From Polyangium sp. 15x6 (GTDB lineage: Bacteria; Myxococcota_A; Polyangia; Polyangiales; Polyangiaceae), in NCBI RefSeq assembly GCF_029960785.1, contig NZ_JASBQE010000110.1, positions 1-37,873 of the forward strand: a stretch of 37,873 nt of DNA, written 5' to 3'. The position numbers and the translations under genes were made by a program. Below the pieces are notes generated by a model. The model did no database searches. It had not been told where the DNA came from and was given only the letters and a program-made list of their open reading frames with translations. This document shows, in pieces, positions 516 to 25,081 of this stretch; position 1 is the stretch's first letter; each line of letters begins with the position of its first letter.

Positions 516-3041
516 GTGCTCATGGCTTGGAGATCAAAACGGAATGGCTGGCTCGCCGCGGCGGGCATTTTCGCGCTCGCGCTGTCCGCGCTGGCTCAGG
601 GATGCGGCGACGGCACGGGCACGGGCGCGGGCGGCTCGGGGGCGGCGGGCGGACCGGGCTCGGGCGGGCAGGGCGGCGACGGCGGTACGTTCACCGTCGG
701 CGCGTCGCAGGGCGGCGGGTTTCCGGGCACGTGTGATCCGACGTGCGACCCCGCGACGCAGGTTTGCTCGCACGGCGTCTGCGTGCCCGTGGCGGGCTGC
801 GCGAACGACGCGGATTGCAAGAACGACACGTATTGCGAGCCGATGCTCAAGCAATGCGTGCCGTGGGAGAGCGCGACGCCGCCGAACGATCCGACGTGCA
901 TCAACGTCATTGCCGCAGGTCAGTTCTCGCCGCGCGTCAAATGCGAGTTCAGCACGGCGCCGGACGGTGATCCGTTCCCCGGCCACGTCGACGTGCAGGG
1001 CACGCCGATCGTGACGAACTTCAACAAGCCCGCGGCCGCGGGCCCGCCGAGCATCGTCGCGGCGTTCACGCCGACCGTGATCGCGAATTACACCGAGGAT
1101 CAAGGCGTCATCCGCGTGCTCAGCGGCAAGGATTGCTCGCTCGAGGCGAACCTCGGCGGCACCGACCTGGACGGCGACGGCGCGCCGGATTGGGTGGTCT
1201 CTTCGTCCTCGCTCGCGTCCGGGGATCTCGACGGTGACGGCGTGGCCGAGATCGTCGCGTACGGGGCGGACGGCTCGACGCTCGCGTTCACGAAAAAGGC
1301 CGGTACGTGGGGATTGCTCTGGAAAGCGCCCTATCAGGCCGGCATCCCGGGCGGCCCCTGCGATTTCAACCAGCACCGCTGCCCCGTGGGCTGGGCTGGA
1401 CCTTCCATTCACGACATCGACGACGACGGCAAGCCCGAGATCCTGCGCGAGGGCGCCGTCTTGCGCTCCGATGGCTCGCTCGCGTCGGGCGCTCCGGCGC
1501 TTTATGCGAGTTACTCCGCGGGCCTCTTCTCCGTGGTGGCGAACCTCGATCAGGATCCGAACATCGAGTTCACGAACGGGCAGTTCATCTGGGAATGGGC
1601 GGGCGGCGCGTGGGTGCCCGAGACCTACTTCCCGGGCCCGTCGACCTCGGCGCCGGGGCACGTGGCCATCGCCGATTTCGGCGCGTATGGCGCCGGCGTG
1701 CCTGCGCAAAATCCCGAGATCGTGGTCGTGCGGAACAACCTGGTGATGATCTACGCGATCGACGGCACGCCGGTGCAGAACCCCGTGCCCGTCCCCGGAA
1801 ATGGGGGCGGCGGTCCGCCCACGATCAGCGATTTCGACGGGGATGGTTTGCCCGAGGTCGCGGTCGCCGGGCAGGCGTTTTACACGATCTACGACCTCGA
1901 TTGCGGCGCGGCCCCGAGGCCCGGCGGGCAATGCAACCTCGGCCCCTGCGACTACGTGGGCGGCACGTGCCCGGCGGGCCAGTACGTGCTCTGGTCACGC
2001 TCCACGCAGGACCTCTCGTCGAACGTCACGGGCTCGAGCGTCTTCGATTTCGAGGCCGACGGGTCGAGCGAGGTCGTCTACGGCGACGAGTGTTTCGTCC
2101 GCGTCTACGACGGTGACACGGGCGACGTGCTCTTCAGCCAGTATCGCTCGTCGTGCACCTGGTACGAAAACCCCATCATCGCCGACGTCGACGGCAATTT
2201 CCGCGCGGATCTCGTCACGCCGTCGAACAAGGCTTGCTCGCCCGACGGGACGGGCATCCCGTGCCAGACCCTCGACGCAAACGGCGTCGATCCGCAGTTC
2301 CCGGGCGTCCGCTGCCAGCAGGCGGCCGATTGTGTCTCCGGGGTGTGCGACGCCGGATTCTGCCGCTGCTCCGAGACGAAGCAATGCTGCGCGGCCCAGG
2401 ACGACGCGGCCTGTATCGAGGAGGGGCTCCGCTGCGCGCCGCCGCCCGCAGGCACGCCCGGGAGTGGCAACACCTGCCGCGCCGGCCACCCGCACGGCGT
2501 GTCCGGCATTCGCGTCTACTCGGACGCGAACGACAAATGGGTCCGCTCGCGGACGATCTGGAACCAGCATCCGTATGCCGTGACGCACGTGAACGAGGAC
2601 GGGACCATTCCCAAGACGAGCGCCTGGACGAACAACTGGGACGACCCCAAGCTGAACAACTTCCGCCAGAACGTGCCAGGCAACGCGAACGGCGCAGCCA
2701 CGGGGGATCCCACGGCAGGCGCGAGCACGCAATTCGCGTGCAGCGGGCAAGGCGCGGAGATCGGCGCTCCGATCTGCAATCGCGGCGCCGATCCAGTCGG
2801 CGCAGGGCTCTCCGTGGGCTTCTACGTCGGGCAGGCCAAGGTCTGCGAAGCAAAGACCACCGAAGTCCTGCCGCCCGGCGAGTGCCGGCTCGTCTCCTGC
2901 AACTGGAGCATGCCGCCCACCATCGAGGCCGACAAAGTAGACGTGACCGTCATCCCAAACGACGACGGCGCGTATGCCGAATGCAAACCGGGAAACAACC
3001 TGGGGACGATCGTCGGCATCTTCTGCAAGCCGCCGGCTTGA
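516..3041 (+). CDS. VCBS/FG-GAP repeat lipoprotein with Cys-rich insert and CARDB-like C-terminus
   Basis: 841 residues, predicted to be exported and lipidated: a basic N-terminus, a hydrophobic stretch and Cys30 (ALAQGC, a loose lipobox), followed by a Gly-rich linker to about residue 65. A short Cys-rich block (about 70-118) resembles the PATQVC/DADC modules of other myxobacterial lipoproteins. The body carries FG-GAP/VCBS calcium-binding loops: DLDGDGAPD near 217, then similar loops near 240, DIDDDGKPEI near 302, DFDGDGLPEV near 439 and DVDGNFRADL near 558. This predicts a beta-propeller with bound calcium. A second Cys-rich block (about 599-640) and an Ig-like, CARDB-type tail (about 740-841) follow. 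No enzymatic motif is visible, so a role in surface binding or adhesion is inference. The start is GTG 516 or ATG 522; GAGGTG just before 522 does not separate them. Confidence 0.85.
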   Translation: MLMAWRSKRNGWLAAAGIFALALSALAQGCGDGTGTGAGGSGAAGGPGSGGQGGDGGTFTVGASQGGGFPGTCDPTCDPATQVCSHGVCVPVAGCANDADCKNDTYCEPMLKQCVPWESATPPNDPTCINVIAAGQFSPRVKCEFSTAPDGDPFPGHVDVQGTPIVTNFNKPAAAGPPSIVAAFTPTVIANYTEDQGVIRVLSGKDCSLEANLGGTDLDGDGAPDWVVSSSSLASGDLDGDGVAEIVAYGADGSTLAFTKKAGTWGLLWKAPYQAGIPGGPCDFNQHRCPVGWAGPSIHDIDDDGKPEILREGAVLRSDGSLASGAPALYASYSAGLFSVVANLDQDPNIEFTNGQFIWEWAGGAWVPETYFPGPSTSAPGHVAIADFGAYGAGVPAQNPEIVVVRNNLVMIYAIDGTPVQNPVPVPGNGGGGPPTISDFDGDGLPEVAVAGQAFYTIYDLDCGAAPRPGGQCNLGPCDYVGGTCPAGQYVLWSRSTQDLSSNVTGSSVFDFEADGSSEVVYGDECFVRVYDGDTGDVLFSQYRSSCTWYENPIIADVDGNFRADLVTPSNKACSPDGTGIPCQTLDANGVDPQFPGVRCQQAADCVSGVCDAGFCRCSETKQCCAAQDDAACIEEGLRCAPPPAGTPGSGNTCRAGHPHGVSGIRVYSDANDKWVRSRTIWNQHPYAVTHVNEDGTIPKTSAWTNNWDDPKLNNFRQNVPGNANGAATGDPTAGASTQFACSGQGAEIGAPICNRGADPVGAGLSVGFYVGQAKVCEAKTTEVLPPGECRLVSCNWSMPPTIEADKVDVTVIPNDDGAYAECKPGNNLGTIVGIFCKPPA

Positions 3042-3059
3042 GCATCGGGGACCGTGGAG

Positions 3060-3357
3060 CCGGGGCGCCGCCCCGGACCCCGCGGGGGCTATCCGCCCCT
3101 CGACCCGGACCAGGCACGGCCTGGACCGAGGGTGGAAGAACTGCGCGATGCGCAGTTCTTCCAACGGGCCCGTTGGACCGCGTTGCCCGTCGAAAGGGCA
3201 GCGCGGCTGTCTTGATGGGCAGGGCGCTCGCCAGTCTTGCCTCGACCCGTTCGATGAACTGCGCATCGCGCAGTTCATCGACCCCGAGTCCAGCGCTTGC
3301 GCTGGTCCGGGTCCAGGGGTGGACAACCCCTGGTCGGGGTCCGGGGTGAAACCCCGG
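3060..3357 (+). repeat. Hairpin-rich dispersed intergenic element, copy A (eight stem-loops)
   Basis: A 298-nt element starts 18 nt after the stop codon at 3041. It contains eight small stem-loops: h1 3060-3076 (CCGGGGC, 3-nt loop), h2 3084-3100 (loop TATCC), h3 3110-3124, h4 3134-3162 (perfect 13-bp arms, loop GAT), a middle of about 88 nt, then h4' 3251-3281 (14-bp arms, loop ATC), h3' 3290-3305, h2' 3313-3333 and h1' 3341-3357. The second half is roughly the inverted complement of the first, so the element could also fold as one long cruciform. Copy B lies at 10058-10354 in inverted orientation. Strand is given as the direction of the preceding gene. The stems could end or stabilise the upstream transcript. 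Open frames in it are GC artefacts. Confidence 0.85.
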
Positions 3358-3410
3358 CGTGGCGCTTCCCTTGCCCGTGTTCGCGGCCTGCAACCTGGCC
3401 CACGTGCCCC

Positions 3411-3440
3411 TTGACACACCTTGCCCCGTCGTTCGACGCT
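3411..3440 (+). promoter_or_regulatory. Weak candidate sigma-70-type promoter, possibly for a leaderless message
   Basis: A perfect TTGACA lies at 3411-3416 and a poor -10 match (GACGCT) at 3435-3440, 18 nt apart. This would place the transcript start at about the ATG at 3447, which also has no clear ribosome binding site. The -10 box is weak, so this is a suggestion only. Confidence 0.25.
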
Positions 3441-3446
3441 GGCGGC

Positions 3447-4313
3447 ATGCCGATTCAGTCGAATGAAGATCCTGTTCACACGCTTGGAATCCTTGCCACG
3501 AAGGTTGGGCCGCCCCAGGTGGGGCTGCTCGACGCGCTGCTCGCGGGTACGGACAATGAACAGCTCACCGAAAAGGGGCGGGAGATCGCCACGGCGCGGA
3601 TCGTCGTCGATGGGGTACGGCTTTATCAGGAGGCGTATCATTTCTGGCAAGGCGCCTCGGAGGCGCAGAAGAGACGCCTCAAGGGGTTTTCGTTGCCCCT
3701 GCTCGGCGTCGCCGTGCACCAGCTCCTCGCGCTCCACGAGCGGGCGCAAAAGATCGCGGACGACACGACCGACGAGGTGAAGTCGCGCGCTCGACGCGCG
3801 AGCGAGGCGAGCCGCGCGGCGGCTCACGGGGTCGCGCTGCGGGATCAGGCGGCCTCGGCCTTGCGGGATGCCGCCGGGCTCGACACGGCGCTGCGTGTGG
3901 AGATCGAGGAGACGGTGGGCACCGCCCAGTCGACGGACACGCTCGCGCGGGGGCTCAGCGCGCTCGCTGATGTCTTGCGCGGGTGGCTGAAGTCCCCGGC
4001 GGGCTCGCCCCTTTTGGCGCGGCTCGCGCTGGCGAGCCTCGACGAGGCCTATGCGGATGAGCTCAGCGCTGCGGCGAACGCCGTGCAGACGACTGCGGCG
4101 CAGGCGGGCGAGCGTAAATCCGCGCGTGCTGCGGCGCAGGCGGGGCTCGATCGGGAAGATGGGGTGGCGCTCCTCCTGTTCGGGCAGATCGTCCGGGCCT
4201 TCGACGCGGCGAACGACCTGGATCCGACGGTCCCGCGGCTCTTGCCGAATGCGACGCGGCGGCTGTTCTCGCGGCGGACGAAGAAGAAGGCGACGGGCGC
4301 GGCGGGGGGCTGA
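3447..4313 (+). CDS. Hypothetical helical protein, 288 aa
   Basis: I do not recognise the family. The frame is open further upstream, but that part runs through the hairpin element, so I take ATG 3447 (MPIQSNEDPVHTLG) as the start. It lacks a good Shine-Dalgarno sequence. The product is rich in Ala, Glu, Arg and Leu with heptad-like spacing and few Gly or Pro, pointing to a mostly alpha-helical soluble protein. There is no signal peptide, no membrane segment and no Cys. The end is basic (RRTKKK). Codon use matches neighbouring genes, so it is probably real. It stands alone: the hairpin element lies upstream, and a 21-bp tandem array and a convergent efflux gene lie downstream. Nothing in the context suggests a function. 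Confidence 0.7.
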   Translation: MPIQSNEDPVHTLGILATKVGPPQVGLLDALLAGTDNEQLTEKGREIATARIVVDGVRLYQEAYHFWQGASEAQKRRLKGFSLPLLGVAVHQLLALHERAQKIADDTTDEVKSRARRASEASRAAAHGVALRDQAASALRDAAGLDTALRVEIEETVGTAQSTDTLARGLSALADVLRGWLKSPAGSPLLARLALASLDEAYADELSAAANAVQTTAAQAGERKSARAAAQAGLDREDGVALLLFGQIVRAFDAANDLDPTVPRLLPNATRRLFSRRTKKKATGAAGG

Positions 4314-4344
4314 TCCGTGCTTTCGGGGTGCTGGAGGCGCATCC

Positions 4345-4563
4345 CGGGATGACGAGGGCGCTCTGCGGGATGACGAGGGCGCTTTTCGGGATGACGAGGG
4401 TGCTCTGCGGGATGACGACGGCGCTTTTCGGGATGACGACGGCGCTCTGCGGGATGACGACGGCGTTTTGCGTGATGACGACGGCGCTTGCCGGTGGCCC
4501 GGGGCGGGATGACGACGGCGTTCTGCGGGATGACGACGACGTTCTGCGGGATGACGACGGCGT

Positions 4564-4566
<3 letters not shown>
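4345..4566. repeat. Tandem array of ten 21-bp units between convergent genes
   Basis: Ten copies of a unit close to CGGGATGACGACGGCGCTCTG run head to tail. The first three have GACGAGGG where later copies have GACGACGG. A block of about 13 extra bases interrupts the array after the seventh unit (around 4495-4506). It fills the gap between the plus gene ending at 4313 and the minus gene ending at 4564, and the last unit overlaps that stop codon. The unit is 7 codons long, so several frames read as heptapeptide repeats (GMTTALC on the plus strand, NAVVIPQ on the minus), but the insertion shifts the frame and no convincing start or gene is attached. Confidence 0.9.
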
Positions 4567-7650
<3,084 letters not shown>

Positions 7651-9975: not shown

Positions 9976-10057
9976 GAGGCGCGAGCCTATCCGCGGGGGA
10001 GAAGCGCGTCCAGCAGCCCGTCAGGTGGGGCATTGGTCTCATCTGGGAGGCGTTTCG

Positions 10058-10354
10058 CTGGGGCGTTGCCCCAGGCCCCACCAGGGGCTATCCGCCCCTG
10101 GACCCGGACCAGCGCAAGCGCTGGACCCGGGGTCGATGAACTGCGCGATGCGCAGTTCATCGAACAGGTCCGAGGCAAGACCGGCGACGATCCTGCCAAC
10201 CGAGACCGTCGTGACTGGCAACGCTGTCGTTGGTCTTGCCACGGGCCTGTGGAAGAACCGCGCATCGCGCGGTTCTTCCAACCCGGGTCCAGCGCTTGCG
10301 CTGGTCCGGGTCGAGGGGCGGATAGCCCCCGCGGGGTCCGGGGCAGAGCCCCGG
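10058..10354 (-). repeat. Hairpin-rich dispersed intergenic element, copy B (eight stem-loops)
   Basis: 297 nt, the inverted counterpart of copy A at 3060-3357. Plus-strand order: h1 10058-10074, h2 10081-10101 (loop TATCC), h3 10109-10124, h4 10133-10163 (14-bp arms, loop GAT), a middle of about 86 nt related to that of copy A in inverted orientation, h4' 10250-10280 (14-bp arms, loop ATC), h3' 10289-10304, h2' 10314-10330, h1' 10338-10354. Strand is that of the preceding minus-strand gene, whose stop codon at 10375 is 20 nt away (18 nt in copy A). Several stem differences between copies are paired changes that keep base pairing. The remainder of the gap 9976-10374 holds no gene. Confidence 0.85.
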
Positions 10355-10374
10355 CGCGGCGTCCCCCGCGACGC

Positions 10375-10680
10375 CTAATCGCAGCGGCAGTAGAGGCACC
10401 CGCGGTGGTGCGGGCCCGTGCCGCAATATCCGGCCCACCCGGTGTTGCTACACGTGCAGGCGTCATGCGCATGGCTGCAGCCGTCGAGGCGGCACGATTG
10501 CGCTTCGAGCGATTGCCCGGCCGATTCCGTATTCTCTTCCGGCGCCGAGAAAGATTCGTCCTGCGCGGTGGGCTCCTCGGAGGGGAACGTCAGCTCCGAG
10601 GGCGTCCCGGCAAAAGCGGAAAACGAGATCAAGGAAGCCGCAAACGACACGACCATGGCCACGAGAGTCTTCTTCTTCAT
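10375..10680 (-). CDS. Small secreted protein with eight-cysteine C-terminal domain
   Basis: 101 residues. A clear signal peptide (KKK start, hydrophobic core, AFA before the cut) should be removed after Ala24. The mature part starts with an acidic Ser/Glu/Pro-rich stretch (25-60). It ends in a compact domain with eight cysteines at 63, 68, 75, 77, 86, 95, 98 and 100, plus histidines (CSHAHDAC, PHHRGC). An even number of closely spaced Cys suggests a disulfide-locked fold or a metal site. I do not recognise the family. ATG 10680 has a perfect AGGAGG 8 nt upstream, the best ribosome site in the window, so strong expression is likely. Downstream, after 20 nt, comes hairpin element B; upstream is an AT-richer leader. 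Confidence 0.8.
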   Translation of the reverse strand: MKKKTLVAMVVSFAASLISFSAFAGTPSELTFPSEEPTAQDESFSAPEENTESAGQSLEAQSCRLDGCSHAHDACTCSNTGWAGYCGTGPHHRGCLYCRCD

Positions 10681-16821: not shown

Positions 16822-18048
16822 GTGCACCGCGTCCGCGCGTCGCTTTTCGTCTCCGTCACGAGCCTGGCGCTCGCAGCGCTCGCGCCAGCCTTTGCCGAGG
16901 CCCACACGATCCCCGGCGGGCTCACGTTGCACCAGATGTCGAGCGCCGCCGACGTCATCGCGGCCGCGCGGATCGAGCGCGTCGGCCCGGAGCCCCGCGG
17001 CGCCGGCCCGCTCCCACCCGTCGAGGCCCGGATTCTCGAGCTTTTCCGGGAAGGTGACGCGAAGGTGGGGCCGATCCGCTTCGTGCCGCACCGTCACGCC
17101 GATGAGAGTTACGTGGCCGGCGAGGAGATCCTTCTCTTCCTCGAGCGCAGGCGCCCCGACGCGAAGGACGCCGCGGCCGTGCCGTATGAATCCGTCGAAG
17201 CCATCGCCGATCGTATCGTGCTCGTGCCCGCGACGCGCGCGACGTGGATCGACGCCACGCGCGCGTACGCCGCGCTCGGCAAGGGCGCGCGGAGCGGCGA
17301 TCCGGCCGCGCTCGGGCGCGTCACCGTCACCATGCTCGGGTCGCAGGAGCCCCGGATCGCGACCTTCGCGCTGCGGGACCTCACGCTCGCCGGCGCCACG
17401 CCCCTGATCGGGGAGGCCGACGTCCCCGCGCTCACCGCGCTCCTCGACGACGCCTCGCGGCCCGCCACCTTGCGCGCCGGCCTTCTCATGGAGCTCGAAC
17501 GGCGCAAGCTCGTCGCCGTCGGGCCGAGCTGGATCCCGCTCCTCCGCTCGGCGCCTCCGAACGATCGCGTGCAGGTCATCCGCGCGGCGGGGGCGCGCGC
17601 CTTCGTCCCCGCCGTCACGGCCGAGCTCGTTTCGATCCTGGAGAAGGGCGAGCGTGACGCGGCGATCGCGGCGGCGCGGGCCCTCGGCTTCGAGAGGAAC
17701 GAGGCCGCGGTCGAGCCGCTCGGGCGCGCCGTGGATCGGGAGCCGGACGAGATGCGCTTCGCGGCGCTCGGAAGCCTGCGCCGCATCGGCTCGCCGTCCG
17801 CGCGGGAGATCCTCGCCCGCGTGGCGACATCGCACCCCGATCCCGAGACCCGACGCGTGGCCACGACCGAGCAGAACCTCCTCGATGCCCGCGCCTCCGC
17901 GCCTCCGGCGGCGCCCGCCGCGACGAGCCCGCCGTCATCGCCGAGCACGGGCTTCGGCACGAAGGGCGTCATCGTGGGGATCGCCCTCGTGGTCCTCGCG
18001 TGCTACGCCCTGTTTTTTCTTCGCAAAGGGAAAGGAAAGCCGGAATGA
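16822..18048 (+). CDS. HEAT-repeat exported protein with C-terminal membrane anchor
   Basis: 408 residues from GTG 16822, chosen because it starts a good signal peptide (MHRVRASLFV..., cut after AEA at about 27); no strong ribosome site is seen. Residues 28-150 form a globular domain (MSSAADVIAAARIERVG...) resembling short surface domains of myxobacterial proteins. About 160-355 are HEAT-like helical repeats (for example EKGERDAAIAAARALGF and EPDEMRFAALGSLRRIG). A Pro/Ala linker leads to one C-terminal helix (about 382-401) and a basic end (RKGKGKPE). The repeats should face the periplasm and bind other proteins. The stop overlaps the next start (ATGA, 18045-18048), so both are translated together. 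Confidence 0.8.
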   Translation: MHRVRASLFVSVTSLALAALAPAFAEAHTIPGGLTLHQMSSAADVIAAARIERVGPEPRGAGPLPPVEARILELFREGDAKVGPIRFVPHRHADESYVAGEEILLFLERRRPDAKDAAAVPYESVEAIADRIVLVPATRATWIDATRAYAALGKGARSGDPAALGRVTVTMLGSQEPRIATFALRDLTLAGATPLIGEADVPALTALLDDASRPATLRAGLLMELERRKLVAVGPSWIPLLRSAPPNDRVQVIRAAGARAFVPAVTAELVSILEKGERDAAIAAARALGFERNEAAVEPLGRAVDREPDEMRFAALGSLRRIGSPSAREILARVATSHPDPETRRVATTEQNLLDARASAPPAAPAATSPPSSPSTGFGTKGVIVGIALVVLACYALFFLRKGKGKPE

Positions 18049-18716
18049 GTTTGGAAGGGCGAACCGCGCTCCTCGCGGGCGCGACGGGCCTCGTCGGTCG
18101 GGACTGCCTCGCGCGCCTGCTCGAGCACCCGGCGTACGCGCGCGTCGTCGTGCTCGTGCGCCGGTCGACGGGAATGAACCACGACAAACTGCACGAGATC
18201 CGCGTCGATTTCGACGCGCTGGGCGACCTCGCGTCCTTGCCTGCCGTCGACGACGTCTTCATCGCCCTCGGCACGACCATCAAGGCGGCTGGATCGCGAC
18301 CGGCCTTTTTCAAGGTCGATCACGATTATGTGGTCTCCGTCGCGAAGCTTGGAAAGCGTGCGGGAGCCCGCAGGCTTTCGCTCGTATCCAGTATCGGAGC
18401 GGATCCTACAGCGATGAATTTTTATCTGCGCGTCAAAGGTGAGGCCGAGCGCGATATCAGCGAGCTCGGTTACGAATGCGTCGATATCCTGCGTCCGAGC
18501 ATGCTCCTCGGCGATCGCACCGAGCACAGGACGGGCGAGGCGCTCGCCGCGCCTATCATGCGCGCCGTGAGCGGAGCCATGATCGGCCCGCTCCGTGTTT
18601 ATCGCGCGATTCAGGCGCGTGACGTCGCGGCGGCGATGGTGGGCGGCTTGGTATCCGATGCCACGGCAGGCGTGCGTATTCGCACCTTCGACGACATTCG
18701 CCGGCTCGCGTCCTGA
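18045..18716 (+). CDS. TIP30/HTATIP2-like NAD(P)-binding reductase
   Basis: 223 residues. A Rossmann dinucleotide motif GATGLVG (residues 12-18) starts the first strand. The family of atypical short-chain reductases is also indicated by VDDVFIALGTTIKAAGS, by YLRVKGEAE, which holds a Y-x3-K pair, and by LRPSMLLGDR. Relatives (HTATIP2-like) bind NADPH and have no firmly established substrate in bacteria. Start ATG 18045 overlaps the HEAT-protein stop and has AAGGAAAG upstream, so the two are translationally coupled, an odd pairing of an exported scaffold with a cytosolic reductase. 18717-18931 holds no gene that I accept; it should contain the promoter of the kinase. Confidence 0.88.
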   Translation: MSLEGRTALLAGATGLVGRDCLARLLEHPAYARVVVLVRRSTGMNHDKLHEIRVDFDALGDLASLPAVDDVFIALGTTIKAAGSRPAFFKVDHDYVVSVAKLGKRAGARRLSLVSSIGADPTAMNFYLRVKGEAERDISELGYECVDILRPSMLLGDRTEHRTGEALAAPIMRAVSGAMIGPLRVYRAIQARDVAAAMVGGLVSDATAGVRIRTFDDIRRLAS

Positions 18717-18931
18717 CGGTAAATCACAGTCTGGTTGTCCGGACCGACACTTGGGGCTCGAACGGGTTTTTCCCCATGCCGTTGGGCCGCACACGATGCA
18801 CAAGCACGAATTCCACAGGGGCATAAGGGTGTGCCCTACGCCGGAACCGGTGAGCGCCGGATTTCGTAAAGGGTCGCCCTCGGTAGGATGCGCATTGTTG
18901 CGGGCGGCGCGTCGTCGTCCCAGGGGGTACC

Positions 18932-21900
18932 ATGCCCAAACGTGCTCTGGAAGGAGCGACCCGCGGTGCGCGGGCGTCGAGCGCTCGTGAGAAAAGGGTC
19001 GCCGGCTCCAAACCCGTCGGGGCCAAGTCGAAGACCACTTCCGCCGAGGTGAAGAAGACGCGGGGCGCAAATGCCGAGCGACAACCACGCGACACCTCGC
19101 CGCGCAGCGGCTCCCTCGATCGCCGGCTGATGCTCGAAGCGCTGACGGCGCTCAAGAAGGGCAATTTCTCCGTGCGGCTGCCCATCGATTGGGATGGCCT
19201 CGATGGAAAAATCGCAGATACCTTCAATGACGTCGTCGAGCTGAACAGCCGGGTGGCGACGGAGCTCGAGCGCGTGAGCCGCGTCGTCGGCAAAGAGGGC
19301 CGCATCGGCGATCGCGCCGCAGTCGCGGGCCTGCTCGGCGCGTGGGCGCAGAAGGTCGGCAGCGTCAACGCGCTGATCAGCGATCTCGTGCATCCGACGA
19401 GCGAGATGGCGCGCGTCATCGGCGCCGTGGCCAAGGGTGATCTCTCGCAGGCCATGGCGCTCGAAGTCGACGGCCGCCCGCTCGAAGGCGAGTTCCTCCG
19501 CACCGCGAAGACGGTGAACACGATGGTCGATCAGCTCGGCTCGTTCGCGTCCGAAGTGACGCGCGTGGCGCGCGAAGTCGGCACCGAAGGCAAGCTCGGC
19601 GGTCAGGCGGAGGTGCAAGGCGTCGCCGGCACCTGGAAGGACCTGACCGATTCCGTGAACTTCATGGCCGGCAATCTGACGGCCCAGGTCCGCAATATCG
19701 CCGCCGTGACAACGGCCGTCGCGAACGGCGACCTTTCGAAGAAGATCACCGTCGACGTGCGCGGCGAGATCCTGGAGCTGAAGAACACCATCAACACGAT
19801 GGTCGATCAGCTTCGTTCGTTCGCGTCGGAAGTGACGCGCGTTGCGCGCGAAGTCGGTACCGAAGGCAAGCTCGGCGGTCAGGCGGACGTGAAGGGCGTC
19901 GCCGGCACGTGGAAGGATTTGACGGACTCCGTGAATTCGATGGCCGGCAACCTGACGAGCCAGGTGCGTAACATCGCCGCCGTCACGACGGCCGTCGCCA
20001 ATGGCGATCTTTCGAAGAAGATCACCGTCGACGTGAAGGGCGAGATCCTCGAGCTGAAGAACACCATCAATACGATGGTGGATCAGCTCAACTCGTTCGC
20101 GTCGGAAGTGACGCGCGTGGCGCGCGAGGTCGGCACGGAAGGCAAGCTCGGCGGGCAAGCCGAGGTGAAGGGCGTCGCCGGCACGTGGAAGGACCTCACC
20201 GACAACGTCAATTCGATGGCCGGTAACCTCACGGTGCAGCTCCGTGACGTGTCGAAGGTCGCGACGGCCATTGCGAACGGCGACTTGACCCAGAAGATCA
20301 CCGTCGATGCGCGCGGCGAGATCCTCCAGATCAAGAACGTCATCAACACGATGGTCGATCAGCTGAGCTCCTTCGCGGCCGAAGTGACGCGCGTGGCGCG
20401 CGAGGTCGGCACGGAAGGCAAGCTCGGCGGTCAAGCGGACGTGAAGGGTGTCGCGGGTACGTGGAAGGACCTCACGGACTCCGTGAATTCGATGGCCGGT
20501 AACCTCACGGTGCAGCTCCGCGACGTGTCGAAGGTCGCGACGGCCATTGCGAACGGCGACTTGACCCAGAAGATCACCGTCGATGCGCGCGGCGAGATCC
20601 TCCAGATCAAGAACGTCACGAATACGATGGTCGATCAGCTGAGCTCTTTCGCGGCCGAAGTGACGCGCGTGGCGCGCGAGGTCGGCACGGAGGGCAAGCT
20701 CGGCGGTCAGGCGGATGTGAAGGGTGTCGCGGGTACGTGGAAGGACCTCACGGACTCCGTGAATTCGATGGCCGGGAACCTGACGGCGCAGGTCCGCAAC
20801 ATCGCGGCCGTGACGACGGCGGTCGCGAATGGCGATCTCTCGAAGAAGATCACCGTCGACGTGAAGGGCGAGATTCTCGAGCTGAAGAACACCATCAATA
20901 CGATGGTGGATCAGCTCAATTCGTTCGCGTCGGAAGTGACGCGCGTGGCGCGTGAGGTCGGCACGGAGGGCAAGCTCGGCGGTCAGGCGGACGTGAAGGG
21001 CGTCGCGGGTACGTGGAAGGATCTCACGGACTCCGTGAATTCGATGGCCGGGAACCTGACGGCGCAGGTCCGCAACATCGCGGCCGTGACGACGGCGGTC
21101 GCGAATGGTGACCTCTCGAAGAAGATCACCGTCGATGTGAAAGGCGAGATCCTCGAGCTGAAGAACACCATCAACACGATGGTCGATCAGCTCTCGGGCT
21201 TCGCTTCCGAAGTGACGCGCGTGGCGCGCGAGGTCGGTACGGAAGGCAAGCTCGGCGGTCAGGCCGAGGTGAAGGGCGTCGCGGGTACGTGGAAGGACCT
21301 CACGGACTCCGTGAACTCGATGGCCGGGAACCTGACGGCGCAGGTCCGCAACATCGCGGCCGTGACGACGGCGGTCGCGAACGGTGACCTCTCCAAGAAG
21401 ATCACCGTCGACGTGCGCGGCGAGATCCTGGAGCTGAAGAACACCATCAACACGATGGTCGATCAGCTCCGATCGTTTGCGTCCGAAGTGACGCGCGTGG
21501 CGCGCGAGGTCGGCACGGAAGGCAAGCTCGGCGGTCAGGCGGACGTGAAGGGCGTCGCGGGTACGTGGAAGGATCTCACGGACTCCGTGAACTCGATGGC
21601 CGGGAACCTGACGGCGCAGGTCCGCAACATCGCGGCCGTGACGACGGCGGTCGCGAACGGCGACCTCTCGAAGAAGATCACCGTCGACGTGAAGGGCGAG
21701 ATCCTGGAGCTGAAGAACACCATCAACACGATGGTGGATCAGCTCAACTCGTTCGCGTCGGAAGTGACGCGCGTGGCGCGCGAGGTCGGCACGGAAGGCA
21801 AGCTCGGCGGTCAGGCCGAGGTGAAGGGCGTCGCCGGCACGTGGAAGGACCTCACCGACAACGTCAACTCGATGGCCGGCAACCTGACGAACCAGGTCCG

Positions 21901-24900
21901 CGGCATCGCGAAGGTCGTGACCGCGGTCGCGAACGGTGACCTCAAGCGAAAGCTCTCCGTCGACGCGAAGGGCGAGATCGCCGAGCTCGCGGACACGATC
22001 AACGGCATGATCGACACGCTCGCGACGTTCGCCGATCAGGTGACGACGGTCGCGCGCGAGGTCGGCGTCGAGGGCAAGCTCGGCGGCCAGGCGAGCGTGC
22101 CGGGCGCCTCGGGCACGTGGCGTGATCTGACGGTCAACGTCAACCAGCTCGCCGCGAACCTGACGACGCAGGTCCGCGCGATCGCCGAGGTCGCGACCGC
22201 CGTCACGAAGGGTGACCTCACGCGGAGCATCAAGGTCGAGGCCCAGGGCGAGCTCGCCGCCCTCAAGGACACGATCAACGAGATGATCCGGAACCTGCGC
22301 GACACCACGCTGAAGAACAGCGAGCAGGACTGGCTGAAGACGAACCTCGCCAAGTTCTCGCGCATGCTCCAGGGCCAGAAGGACCTGCTCACCGTCGGCC
22401 GGCTGATCCTCTCGGAGCTCGCGCCTGTCGTCTCCGCGCAGCAGGGCGTCTTCTACACGATGGACGTCTCGAAGGAGGAGCCGATCCTGAAGCTCCTCGC
22501 GAGCTACGCGTACAAGCAGAGGAAGCACTCGGACAACCAGTTCCGTCTCGGCGAGGGGCTCGTCGGTCAGTGCGCGCTCGAAAAGGAGCGCATCCTGCTC
22601 GTCAACGCGCCGCCCGACTACATCACGATCACGAGCGGCCTCGGCGAGGCCGCGCCCGTGAACATCGTGGTCCTGCCCGTGCTCTTCGAGGGCCAGGTCA
22701 AGGCCATCCTGGAGCTCGCCTCGTTCGAGCGGTACAGCCCCACGCACCTCGCGTTCCTCGATCAGCTCACGGAGTCGATCGGCATCGTGCTCAACACGAT
22801 CGAGGCGAACATGCGCACCGAGGATCTGCTGAAGCAGTCGCAGTCCCTCGCGCGGGAGCTCCAGAGCCAGCAGGAGGAGCTGCGCCAGACGAACGCGGAG
22901 CTCGGCGAGAAGGCGCGCCTGCTCGCCCAGCAGAACGTGGAGGTCGAGCGCAAGAACCGCGAGGTCGAGCAAGCCCGTCAGGCCCTCGAAGAGAAGGCCA
23001 AGCAGCTCGCGCTGACCTCGAAGTACAAGTCCGAGTTCCTCGCGAACATGTCGCACGAGCTCCGGACGCCGCTGAACAGCCTCCTGATCCTCTCCGAGCA
23101 GCTCTCGAAGAACACGGACGGCAACCTCTTCCCCAAGCAGGTCGATTTCGCCAAGACGATCCACTCGTCCGGAAACGAGCTGCTCGGCCTCATCAACGAC
23201 ATCCTCGACCTGTCGAAGATCGAGTCGGGCACCGTCGTCGTCGACGTCGGAGAGGTCTGGTTCCGCGACCTCGCCGACTACGTGGAGCGCACGTTCCGGC
23301 ACGTCGCGGACGCGAAGAAGCTCGAGTTCGAGCTCGACTTCGCGCCCATGCTGCCGCGTTCGATCCACACCGACGCCAAGCGTCTGCAGCAGGTGCTCAA
23401 GAACCTGCTGTCGAACGCCTTCAAGTTCACCGAGCGCGGCAAGGTGCGCCTCGAGGTACGCACCGTCTCGGACGGCTACAGCCCCGAGAACGAGCACATC
23501 GGCCGCGCGGGCTGGGCGATCGCGTTCAGCGTGCACGACACTGGCATCGGCATCTCCCCCGACAAGCAGCAGATCATCTTCGAGGCCTTCCAGCAGGCGG
23601 ACGGCTCGACGAGCCGCAAGTACGGCGGCACGGGCCTCGGCCTCGCCATCAGCCGCGGCATCGCGAACCTGCTCGGCGGCGAGCTGCGCCTGTCGAGCCA
23701 GCCCGGGCGCGGCAGCACCTTCACGCTCTACGTGCCGCACGTGTACGCGGCGCCGCAGCGCGTGGCCCGCACGCGCCCGTCCGCGATGCTCGAGTCCTCG
23801 AACGCGATCGCGGCCTACGAGGTGCCCGAGCCCTTGATCATCGACACCCCGCCGCTCCTGCCCGTGTCGATCGAAGACGATCGCACGGTCATCCGGCCGG
23901 GCGAGCGATCGCTGCTCGTCGTCGAGAACGATCTCGCGTTCGCGCGGCTCATCGTGGAGGTCGCGCGCGAGCGTGGGCTCAAGGCCGTGGTCGCGCATCG
24001 CGGGGCGGACGCGCTCTCCATGGCGCGCGAGCTCAAGCCCGCGGCGGTCTCGCTCGATCTGCACCTGCCCGACATCGACGGCCTGCGTGTCCTCGATCGG
24101 CTCAAGCACGACCTCGGCATGCGGCACGTGCCGGTGCAGGTGATCACGACGGACGTCGACGAGCGCGAGCGCGCGCTGCGGATGGGCGCGCGGGACGTGC
24201 TCTCGAAGCCCGTCCGCACGCGGGACGCGCTCTCGCACGCGATCGAGCGGATCATCGAGTTCCTCGACGCAGAGCGACGCTCGCTCCTCGTCGTCGAGTC
24301 CGAGGGGCCGGAGCGTACGGCCAAGATCAACCTGCTCCAGCACGACAACGTCGAGATCCGCGTCGCGGGCTCGCTCGACGAGGCCATCGATGCGCTCACC
24401 GTGGACCGCCCGGACGCGGTCGTCACGGCGGTCGACCTGCCCGACGGGCACGGGCTCGATCTCGTGCGGCGCGCGTCGAGCATCGCGGTGATCGCGAACG
24501 TGCCCTTCATCGTGCACGTGCCGGGCGGCATGTCACCGGCCGACGAAGAGCGCATCGAGCGGATCGGGCACGTCGGCGTGCTCAAGCACAGCCGTTCGGA
24601 GGAGCGCCTCATCGACGAGGTCGCGCTCTTCTTGCACCTGCCCATCGACAGGCTCACGCCCGCGCAGCGGCAGGCGCTCGAGCGGCTTCACAGCTCGCAG
24701 CAGGTTCTCGCCGGCAAACGCGTGCTCATCGTGGACGACGACATCCGTAACATCTTCGCCATGACGACCATCCTCGAAGAGCAGGGGATGATCACGCAGG
24801 CGGCGGAGACGGGGCGGGACGCGATCAAGGTGCTCGAAGAGAGCGCCGGAATCGACGTCGTCCTGATGGACATCATGATGCCCGAGATGGACGGATACGA

Positions 24901-25081
24901 TACGATCCGGACGATACGGGCACGCGAGGAATGGCGCGCGCTCCCGATCGTCGCCGTGACCGCGAAGGCCATGAAGGGCGATCGCGAGAAGTGCTTCGAG
25001 GCCGGGGCAACCGACTACATCGCGAAGCCCGTGGATCCCGAGCAGCTCTTCGCGCGGCTGCGCTTCTGGCTGCACAGGTGA
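18932..25081 (+). CDS. Poly-HAMP soluble hybrid histidine kinase with GAF and three receiver domains
   Basis: 2049 residues, no membrane helix. After a basic tail (1-65) come HAMP modules: one divergent pair (66-200), nine 92-aa units (about 204-1030) and a tenth divergent unit to about 1120. Each unit holds two HAMP-like halves ([12 protein letters not shown]... and [12 protein letters not shown]...). Then come GAF (about 1150-1300), a coiled coil, HisKA with His1375 ([10 protein letters not shown]), and HATPase ([10 protein letters not shown] near 1491; GTGLGLAIS near 1567). Three receivers follow: Asp1709, Asp1835 (degenerate; lacks the acidic pair after VVES) and Asp1980. Poly-HAMP cytosolic kinases resemble fungal group III (Nik1/Os-1) enzymes, which sense osmotic stress. 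ATG 18932 has AGGGGGT upstream. The partner kinase follows after 32 nt. Confidence 0.95.
19541..22024 (+). repeat. Nine tandem 276-bp repeats inside the poly-HAMP kinase gene
   Basis: Units begin at 19541, 19817, 20093, 20369, 20645, 20921, 21197, 21473 and 21749, exactly 276 bp (92 codons) apart. Many are nearly identical at DNA level, including synonymous positions. Units three and four share a variant second half ([21 protein letters not shown]); the ninth diverges in its second half, and a tenth, more distant unit follows at 22025. This points to recent expansion or homogenisation by recombination, and is a likely place for copy-number variation or misassembly. Confidence 0.95.

Follow-up and report, generated by a model that had tools for sequence, protein, structure and literature searches.

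The window analysed here, a 37,873-nt stretch of Polyangium sp. 15x6, carries two copies of an intergenic repeat with eight hairpins which in all likelihood (a probability of about 0.85) is a Polyangium MITE with IS4-family ends of the IS50/Tn5 type, probably moved in trans and with stems corrected from its own arms. The assignment follows from ends shared with an insertion sequence, hereafter the partner, from 9-bp target duplications and from the Tn5-type transposase which that partner encodes. The sequence-only reading of the window knew no named element of this design, which may hold for the interior, whereas the unit as a whole is a MITE with an IS4/IS50-type partner.

Copies A (298 nt) and B (297 nt) each consist, as had been described, of four hairpins, a variable middle of 85-90 nt and four hairpins in mirror order. 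The four paired substitutions quoted between them were all recovered once copy B was reverse-complemented (for instance, CCAGGC/GCCTGG versus CCAGCGC/GCGCTGG), and the h4 and h5 stems of copy A are real, but 14 bp long rather than 9 bp as quoted. Similarly, positions 3060-3357 are the core of the element but not all of it: the whole mobile unit reaches ~32 nt further on each side, extending over ~3038-3370 in copy A, where the ends are eroded, and over 10026-10374 in copy B, where they are partly kept. The features of the two copies in the window are:

516 to 3041, plus strand: 841-aa gene whose stop codon precedes the core of copy A by 18 nt
3038 to 3059, plus strand: left terminal inverted repeat of copy A, eroded, starting at the upstream gene's TGA stop (3039-3041)
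3060 to 3357, plus strand: core of copy A (h1-h4, variable middle, h5-h8), from direct reading and script
3060 to 3076, plus strand: h1 of copy A
3085 to 3099, plus strand: h2 of copy A, 5-bp stem by eye
3110 to 3124, plus strand: h3 of copy A, CCAGGC-acg-GCCTGG
3133 to 3163, plus strand: h4 of copy A, perfect 14-bp stem, loop GAT
3251 to 3281, plus strand: h5 of copy A, perfect 14-bp stem, loop ATC
3290 to 3305, plus strand: h6 of copy A
3313 to 3333, plus strand: h7 of copy A
3341 to 3357, plus strand: h8 of copy A
3358 to 3370, plus strand: right terminal inverted repeat of copy A, eroded, outer limit approximate
10026 to 10057, minus strand: terminal inverted repeat of copy B, nearly complete, GCATTGGTCTCATCTGGGAGGCG kept, outermost CTGAG altered
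10058 to 10354, minus strand: core of copy B, inverted relative to copy A, from direct reading and script
10355 to 10374, minus strand: other terminal inverted repeat of copy B, eroded, abutting the minus-strand gene's stop codon (10375-10377)
10375 to 10680, minus strand: 101-aa reading frame adjoining copy B, its stop codon separated from the core by 20 nt

Hairpins of the h3 type are those in which several partner insertion sequences sit in other species. The start of the 101-aa frame beside copy B looks signal-peptide-like by eye. No Rfam family matches the window at the gathering threshold. Elsewhere in the window, positions 19487-22327 hold ten head-to-tail units of 276 nt within a long plus-strand reading frame (18932-25081).

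The search of related genomes and the copy count that had been proposed for this element found the repeat in all six Polyangium genomes examined. The full repeat measures ~360 nt, and each genome holds ~98 to 431 first-look candidates, of which 40 per genome were scored and the remainder stand at the first-look level; the genome of the window accounts for the 431. The h4 pattern GAACNGCGCNNNGCGCNGTTC occurs at 511 places in this genome and its backwards control at none, so that the element is not a product of chance. Across the order, the full core was found in six of 144 genomes, all Polyangium, with only short matches in five others, and a contig scan recovered at least 59 stretches among the matches listed, every one from Polyangium. 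There are also partial copies of ~70-140 nt, some located just behind stop codons (L041:6419-6516, L070:4142-4230, L079:12779-12871). The titles and abstract openings listed from an open-licence library describe no Polyangium repeat of this kind, and the accessible part of the Sorangium genome paper (PMC3696898) does not mention such a repeat.

Outside the core, similarity between copies fades across ~30 nt, and the ends of most sampled copies are eroded. Copies with preserved ends carry the terminal inverted repeat CTGAGCATTGGTCTCATC... at either side. The end motif CTGAGCATNGGTYTC is found exactly at 128 places in the six genomes, compared to none for its backwards control. Of 24 units with both ends listed, 18 are shorter than 450 nt (336-392 nt, with CTGAGCATNGGTYTC at both ends and at most three mismatches) and were counted; the other six span 643 to 3539 nt. 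Nine of the 18 are flanked by a 9-bp duplication matching at 8 or more of 9 positions, perfectly in six, whereas exchanged flanks reached this level in 2 of 306 combinations and a perfect match in none. Repeat lengths of 4-8 and 10-12 gave at most one perfect match apiece; an additional copy, L184, has a 10-bp repeat. The remaining nine units lack a duplication at this level, and in L135, L191 and L192 it is missing despite intact or nearly intact ends. In a wider set of end pairs, 17 of 67 candidates passed the same threshold, versus 23 of 4422 exchanged pairs. A sister species provided an alignment for ten sites. The insertion is clearly missing from the sister at five of them (L040:9890, L084:4856, L110:9936, L130:9720 and L064:9753), the comparison is ambiguous at four, and L064:17688 is occupied in both species. 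The short units hold no transposase gene, and none of 155 full copies overlaps a called gene by more than 100 nt. Two other readings of the borders were dropped: exact insertion between stop codons without duplication, as both-ended copies carry 9-bp duplications, and TGA as a target trinucleotide, because TGA is part of the element's own end, CTGAG.

The partner is an insertion sequence of 1503/1504 bp with nearly the same ends as the MITE, intact in two of the six species, with one full copy in G004 (1503 bp) and four in G002 (a 1504-bp form, 84% identical). The G004 copy (L168 and L203, the same locus) is flanked by the perfect duplication AACCAGGGC; altogether, four of the five full copies (L203, L204, L213 and L216) have duplications matching at 8 or 9 of 9 positions, and L208 does not reach this level. 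Over its terminal 19 bp, a MITE copy is identical to the two ends of the G004 element at 19 and 18 positions; for the G002 form, the counts are 18 and 17. The partner protein P0004 (474 aa) matches PF14706, PF02281 and PF01609, that is, the Tn5 DNA-binding, dimerisation and DDE domains, scores 240.6 bits against the NCBIfam IS4 model (cut-off 160), matches the solved Tn5 transposase with an E-value of 8.7e-31, and has the residues D96, D195 and E337 (DDE) together with the YREK signature, Y(2)R(3)E(6)K. The partner's end CTGAGCACTGGTCTCATCTC fits the IS50-subgroup consensus CW------Y---CA-A--W- at C1, W2, Y9, C13, A16 and W19, but has T in place of A14.

In the genome of the window, a draft of 275 contigs, no intact copy of the partner was found, only two partial transposase matches (60 and 72% identity), both of which adjoin a different end, CTGACCATTCATCTCATC. 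No match to the transposase was found in G003; G001 holds only fragments of the partner, mostly at contig ends, and the single match in G005 is split across two frames and has different ends. Outside the ends, the MITE interior has no similarity to the partner, so that the partner does not account for its origin. The 1011-bp L160, 2090-bp L030 and 3539-bp L183 units, all bounded by these ends, were considered as autonomous elements and discarded, as no Tn5-type transposase was found in them by eye or by the P0004 search. The L030 unit (G002, 17238-19327) is bounded by the ends of the partner, flanked by a perfect duplication of 9 bp, GGCACGGCC, and inserted in an h3 hairpin; its reading frame, judged by eye, is not the transposase and apparently represents a cargo gene moved by the partner's ends. 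The L183 unit (G003, 1760-5298) lies between MITE ends and has pieces of the repeat on either side, flanks matching at 4 of 9 positions and, on the minus strand of its interior, a foreign transposase-like frame of 401 aa (by eye). A 358-bp pair of exactly the MITE's ends is also present in a genome from another genus of the same family (G136, C9:27872-28229), where the best core match among those listed has an E-value of 0.105, none is listed on C9, and only a short fragment of the transposase was found.

To characterize the targets, 17 distinct duplicated sites of the MITE, the insertion sequence and the cargo units were rejoined in silico, with L168 omitted as identical to L203 and L184 added. 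A target hairpin of at least 7 bp is present at eight of the 17, compared to 1.7% at random (n=4000) and 4.6% at sites 10-60 nt behind stop codons (n=7608), the latter including copies of the repeat. Five of the 17 lie in the repeat's own h3, four at its centre (L250, L204, L216 and L030) and one across one arm (L203); among the 12 targets outside the repeat, only four have a hairpin of at least 7 bp. Insertion occurred inside a called gene at three of the 17 distinct sites. At L147 and L186, the duplication spans the end of one convergent gene and the other gene ends 4-6 nt off, a geometry by which insertion can leave both convergent genes intact. By eye, hairpins of the type CCCCTCTCC...GGAGAGGGG recur as targets of three young insertions (L138:9422-9791, L160:1501-2511 and L184:1796-2162); these may be another repeated palindrome of Polyangium genomes.

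Full copies are concentrated behind genes. Among the 155 from six species, 83 lie between convergent, 56 between codirectional and 10 between divergent genes, and six at edges. The gene calls came from an in-house script, and at least one small gene that seems plausible (10375-10680) escaped it. The core starts at a median of 21 nt from the stop codon on stop-facing sides (n=222) and of 133.5 nt on start-facing sides (n=76). Convergent gaps make up 81 of 147 occupied gaps versus 10.4% of empty gap DNA at the same loci, and 51 of the 56 copies between codirectional genes occupy the half of the gap nearer the stop codon; as the sampled loci centre on the best-scoring copies, these figures describe well-preserved copies. 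The junctions occupied in two species include three orthologous pairs between G001 and G002.

Pairing of the stems was assessed in 152 copies of 285-345 nt from 220 places, that is, in 304 half-elements from six species. Thirty stem pairs were scored, leaving aside the length-variable outer pairs of h2 and inner pairs of h3; when these are included, left halves show many non-pairs at the base of h2 and the top of h3. The scored cells comprise 9049 Watson-Crick pairs, 20 A-C, 3 G-T and 18 other mismatches, with 30 gapped cells set aside. Many copies with unpreserved stems had been named in advance as the outcome that would speak against the fold; instead, Watson-Crick pairing amounts to 99.67% in left and 99.43% in right halves of the sampled copies. 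With the partner position slid by one to three columns, pairing falls to 20-42%, and for neither half does any of 200 shuffles attain the observed value (both controls run with Python scripts). The eight-hairpin fold is thus conserved along with two-sided changes across the 304 halves, with fewer cases visible in situ between orthologues.

A tree of the copies, which may be disturbed by copying between elements, yields 74 two-sided changes versus 41 changes to a mismatch (20 A-C, 3 G-T and 18 other); no mismatch is inferred to have reverted to a pair, so that the mismatches sit at the tips. The excess of A-C over G-T, 20 to 3 with stems read from outside to inside, amounts to a strand bias. 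For comparison in situ, four of ten orthologous pairs were used (three G001/G002 and one G002/G003), the others being too diverged or doubtful as the same insertion. Differing sites number 16 of 671 in stems, 20 of 225 in loops and spacers and 67 of 322 in the middle, which shows that the stems are constrained in place. Among 331 orthologous stem pairs, some of them doubtful as folded, six changed on both sides, three changed to or from G-T and one otherwise; five of the six two-sided changes fall in the single G002/G003 pair. In the orthologues L126:2075 and L032:9072, one hairpin loop reads GGA and TCC, respectively, reverse-complemented over an unchanged stem. Overall, the two commonest h4 loops seldom occur in reverse-complement form, with ATC or GGA in eight of the 304 halves.

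These observations bear on the claim that compensatory change indicates selection on the fold. By themselves, the paired changes do not support it, because template switching yields them without selection, and here few one-sided intermediates occur, A-C outnumbers G-T, and a loop has been inverted. Selection at the RNA level, considered through G-U pairs, is not supported, given the lack of a G-U excess in the stems, and the pairing thus looks kept at the level of DNA. The maintenance of the stems is plausibly due to template switching, or else to selection, possibly on the hairpins as gene-end signals or landing sites.

The most coherent course of events that we can propose begins with the IS50-type transposase, which most likely moves the MITE in trans, since the ends and the duplication length are shared. 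This transposase would often enter GC-rich hairpins, both terminator-like palindromes and the MITE's own h3. Insertions within genes or promoters would tend to vanish, and old copies would persist where an array of hairpins is harmless or useful, right behind stop codons and chiefly in small convergent gaps, in which a 9-bp duplication can spare both gene ends. After insertion, the ends would erode and the middle drift, with the eight short stems remaining nearly perfect, preferably because each hairpin is corrected by its own other arm during replication and, as a second choice, through selection.

Whether the hairpins matter to the host is the point on which the main alternatives differ. A neutral MITE, with stems resulting only from template switching and copying between elements and a position set by purifying selection elsewhere, has in our judgement about even odds. 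The tree is consistent with it, given the preponderance of two-sided changes over changes to a mismatch and the lack of inferred returns, as is the inverted loop, a mechanism documented in the accessible part of PMC8794818, according to which template switching leaves footprints such as loop inversions and paired changes. However, the 152 sampled copies retain nearly perfect stems even though most of their ends have eroded, and template switching alone need not maintain stem length. Domestication as a bidirectional 3'-end element, with selection keeping the hairpins that end transcription or shield mRNA 3' ends for both convergent genes, the stems protecting trimmed ends, would account for the proximity to stop codons, including that of some of the short partial copies, for the stop-side placement in codirectional gaps and for the slower change of stems than of the middle between orthologues. 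Against this stand the lack of a T-tract intrinsic terminator in positions 2900-3500, the scanned region of copy A, and the missing G-U excess expected of RNA-level selection (3 G-T versus 15 A-C cells in stop-side halves), and the removal of harmful insertions also explains the position; we regard this explanation as rather doubtful, a role at gene ends being possible. Bolder, and in our opinion unlikely, is the idea that a hairpin-reading Tn5-type transposase has seeded the genus with a portable bidirectional gene-end module, which would insert into hairpins downstream of stop codons and come to form the 3' boundary of one or two genes, its own hairpins serving as the next landing pads. If so, palindromes would nest in palindromes, and convergent junctions would be progressively rebuilt of transposon DNA.

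Two further explanations concern the nature of the element itself. The consensus of 51 copies from the genome of the window also folds as one long rod, its lowest-energy structure (MFE -248.7 kcal/mol), and this rod or cruciform might be the functional fold, with the small hairpins incidental. At 15 variable stem columns, however, the halves agree at 0.478 within a copy versus 0.478 between copies; the halves of a copy thus show no covariation with each other, the predicted rod is accordingly not what is maintained, and we rejected it as the conserved fold, its functional role being very improbable. An element of the REP/BIME type moved by a RAYT (Y1) transposase would be in keeping with short intergenic palindromes that are frequent between convergent genes and form a mosaic in mirror order. 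Nevertheless, Y1_Tnp (PF01797) was found in only three of the six genomes and had no match in G002, a genome of two contigs with 224 first-look candidates of the repeat, and terminal repeats with 9-bp duplications are not known as a RAYT signature. RAYT was rejected as the mover, and the REP/BIME origin appears extremely improbable compared to a MITE with Tn5-type ends.

The repeat is a natural case on which to ask if compensatory changes in hairpins are proof of selection. Its many hairpins, evolving in DNA with few one-sided intermediates and no G-U excess, imply that covariation counts alone could mislead a search for RNAs. It equally provides a natural test of whether transposons supply gene-end signals in bulk, as the sampled copies lie mostly behind stop codons in six species.

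Among known systems, the Polyangium repeat resembles the bacterial MITEs, such as Chunjie, QMITE2 and Correia, for which waning duplications and many truncated copies are well known according to the accessible text of a review (PMC10969869): it is small and intergenic, encodes no transposase, and has terminal inverted repeats, duplications that wane with age and truncated copies. It differs in being GC-rich, whereas the same text calls MITEs typically AT-rich, as well as in its eight near-perfect mirrored hairpins, its strong bias to positions behind stop codons and its copy number of up to several hundred per genome. REP/BIME elements, to which roles in mRNA stability and as landing sites have been ascribed (PMC1525189, in the part available), are likewise palindromic, extragenic and often found between convergent genes, but the Polyangium repeat moves whole, bounded by terminal repeats and flanked by 9-bp duplications, and three of its six host genomes gave no Y1 match. 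The partner matches the IS50 subgroup of the IS4 family, characterized in the available portion of PMC2266710 by a length of 1350-1550 bp, CW ends and 8-9-bp duplications, in its length, CT ends, duplication length, DDE and YREK residues and Tn5-type domains. Unlike that subgroup, it agrees with the end consensus only in part, with T for A at position 14, has several copies in hairpins and accompanies a high-copy MITE of unrelated interior. A parallel in target choice is ISRm22 of Sinorhizobium meliloti, also an IS4-family element that enters GC-rich palindromes, inserting at the axis of REPs which are frequent between convergent genes; the same source, as far as its available part goes, states that Tn5 targets often are palindromic with GC pairs at the ends (PMC1525189). 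ISRm22 differs from the partner in its 6-bp duplications, its host REP targets and its place in the IS4Sa subgroup (PMC2266710, available part), and the available part of PMC1525189 describes no hairpin-array MITE alongside it. We found no description of an interior built of eight hairpins, of a preference for sites following stop codons, or of a Tn5-type element residing in hairpins of the MITE that it accompanies; the last of these extends the palindrome preference of some IS4-family elements, as exemplified by ISRm22, to the Tn5 type.
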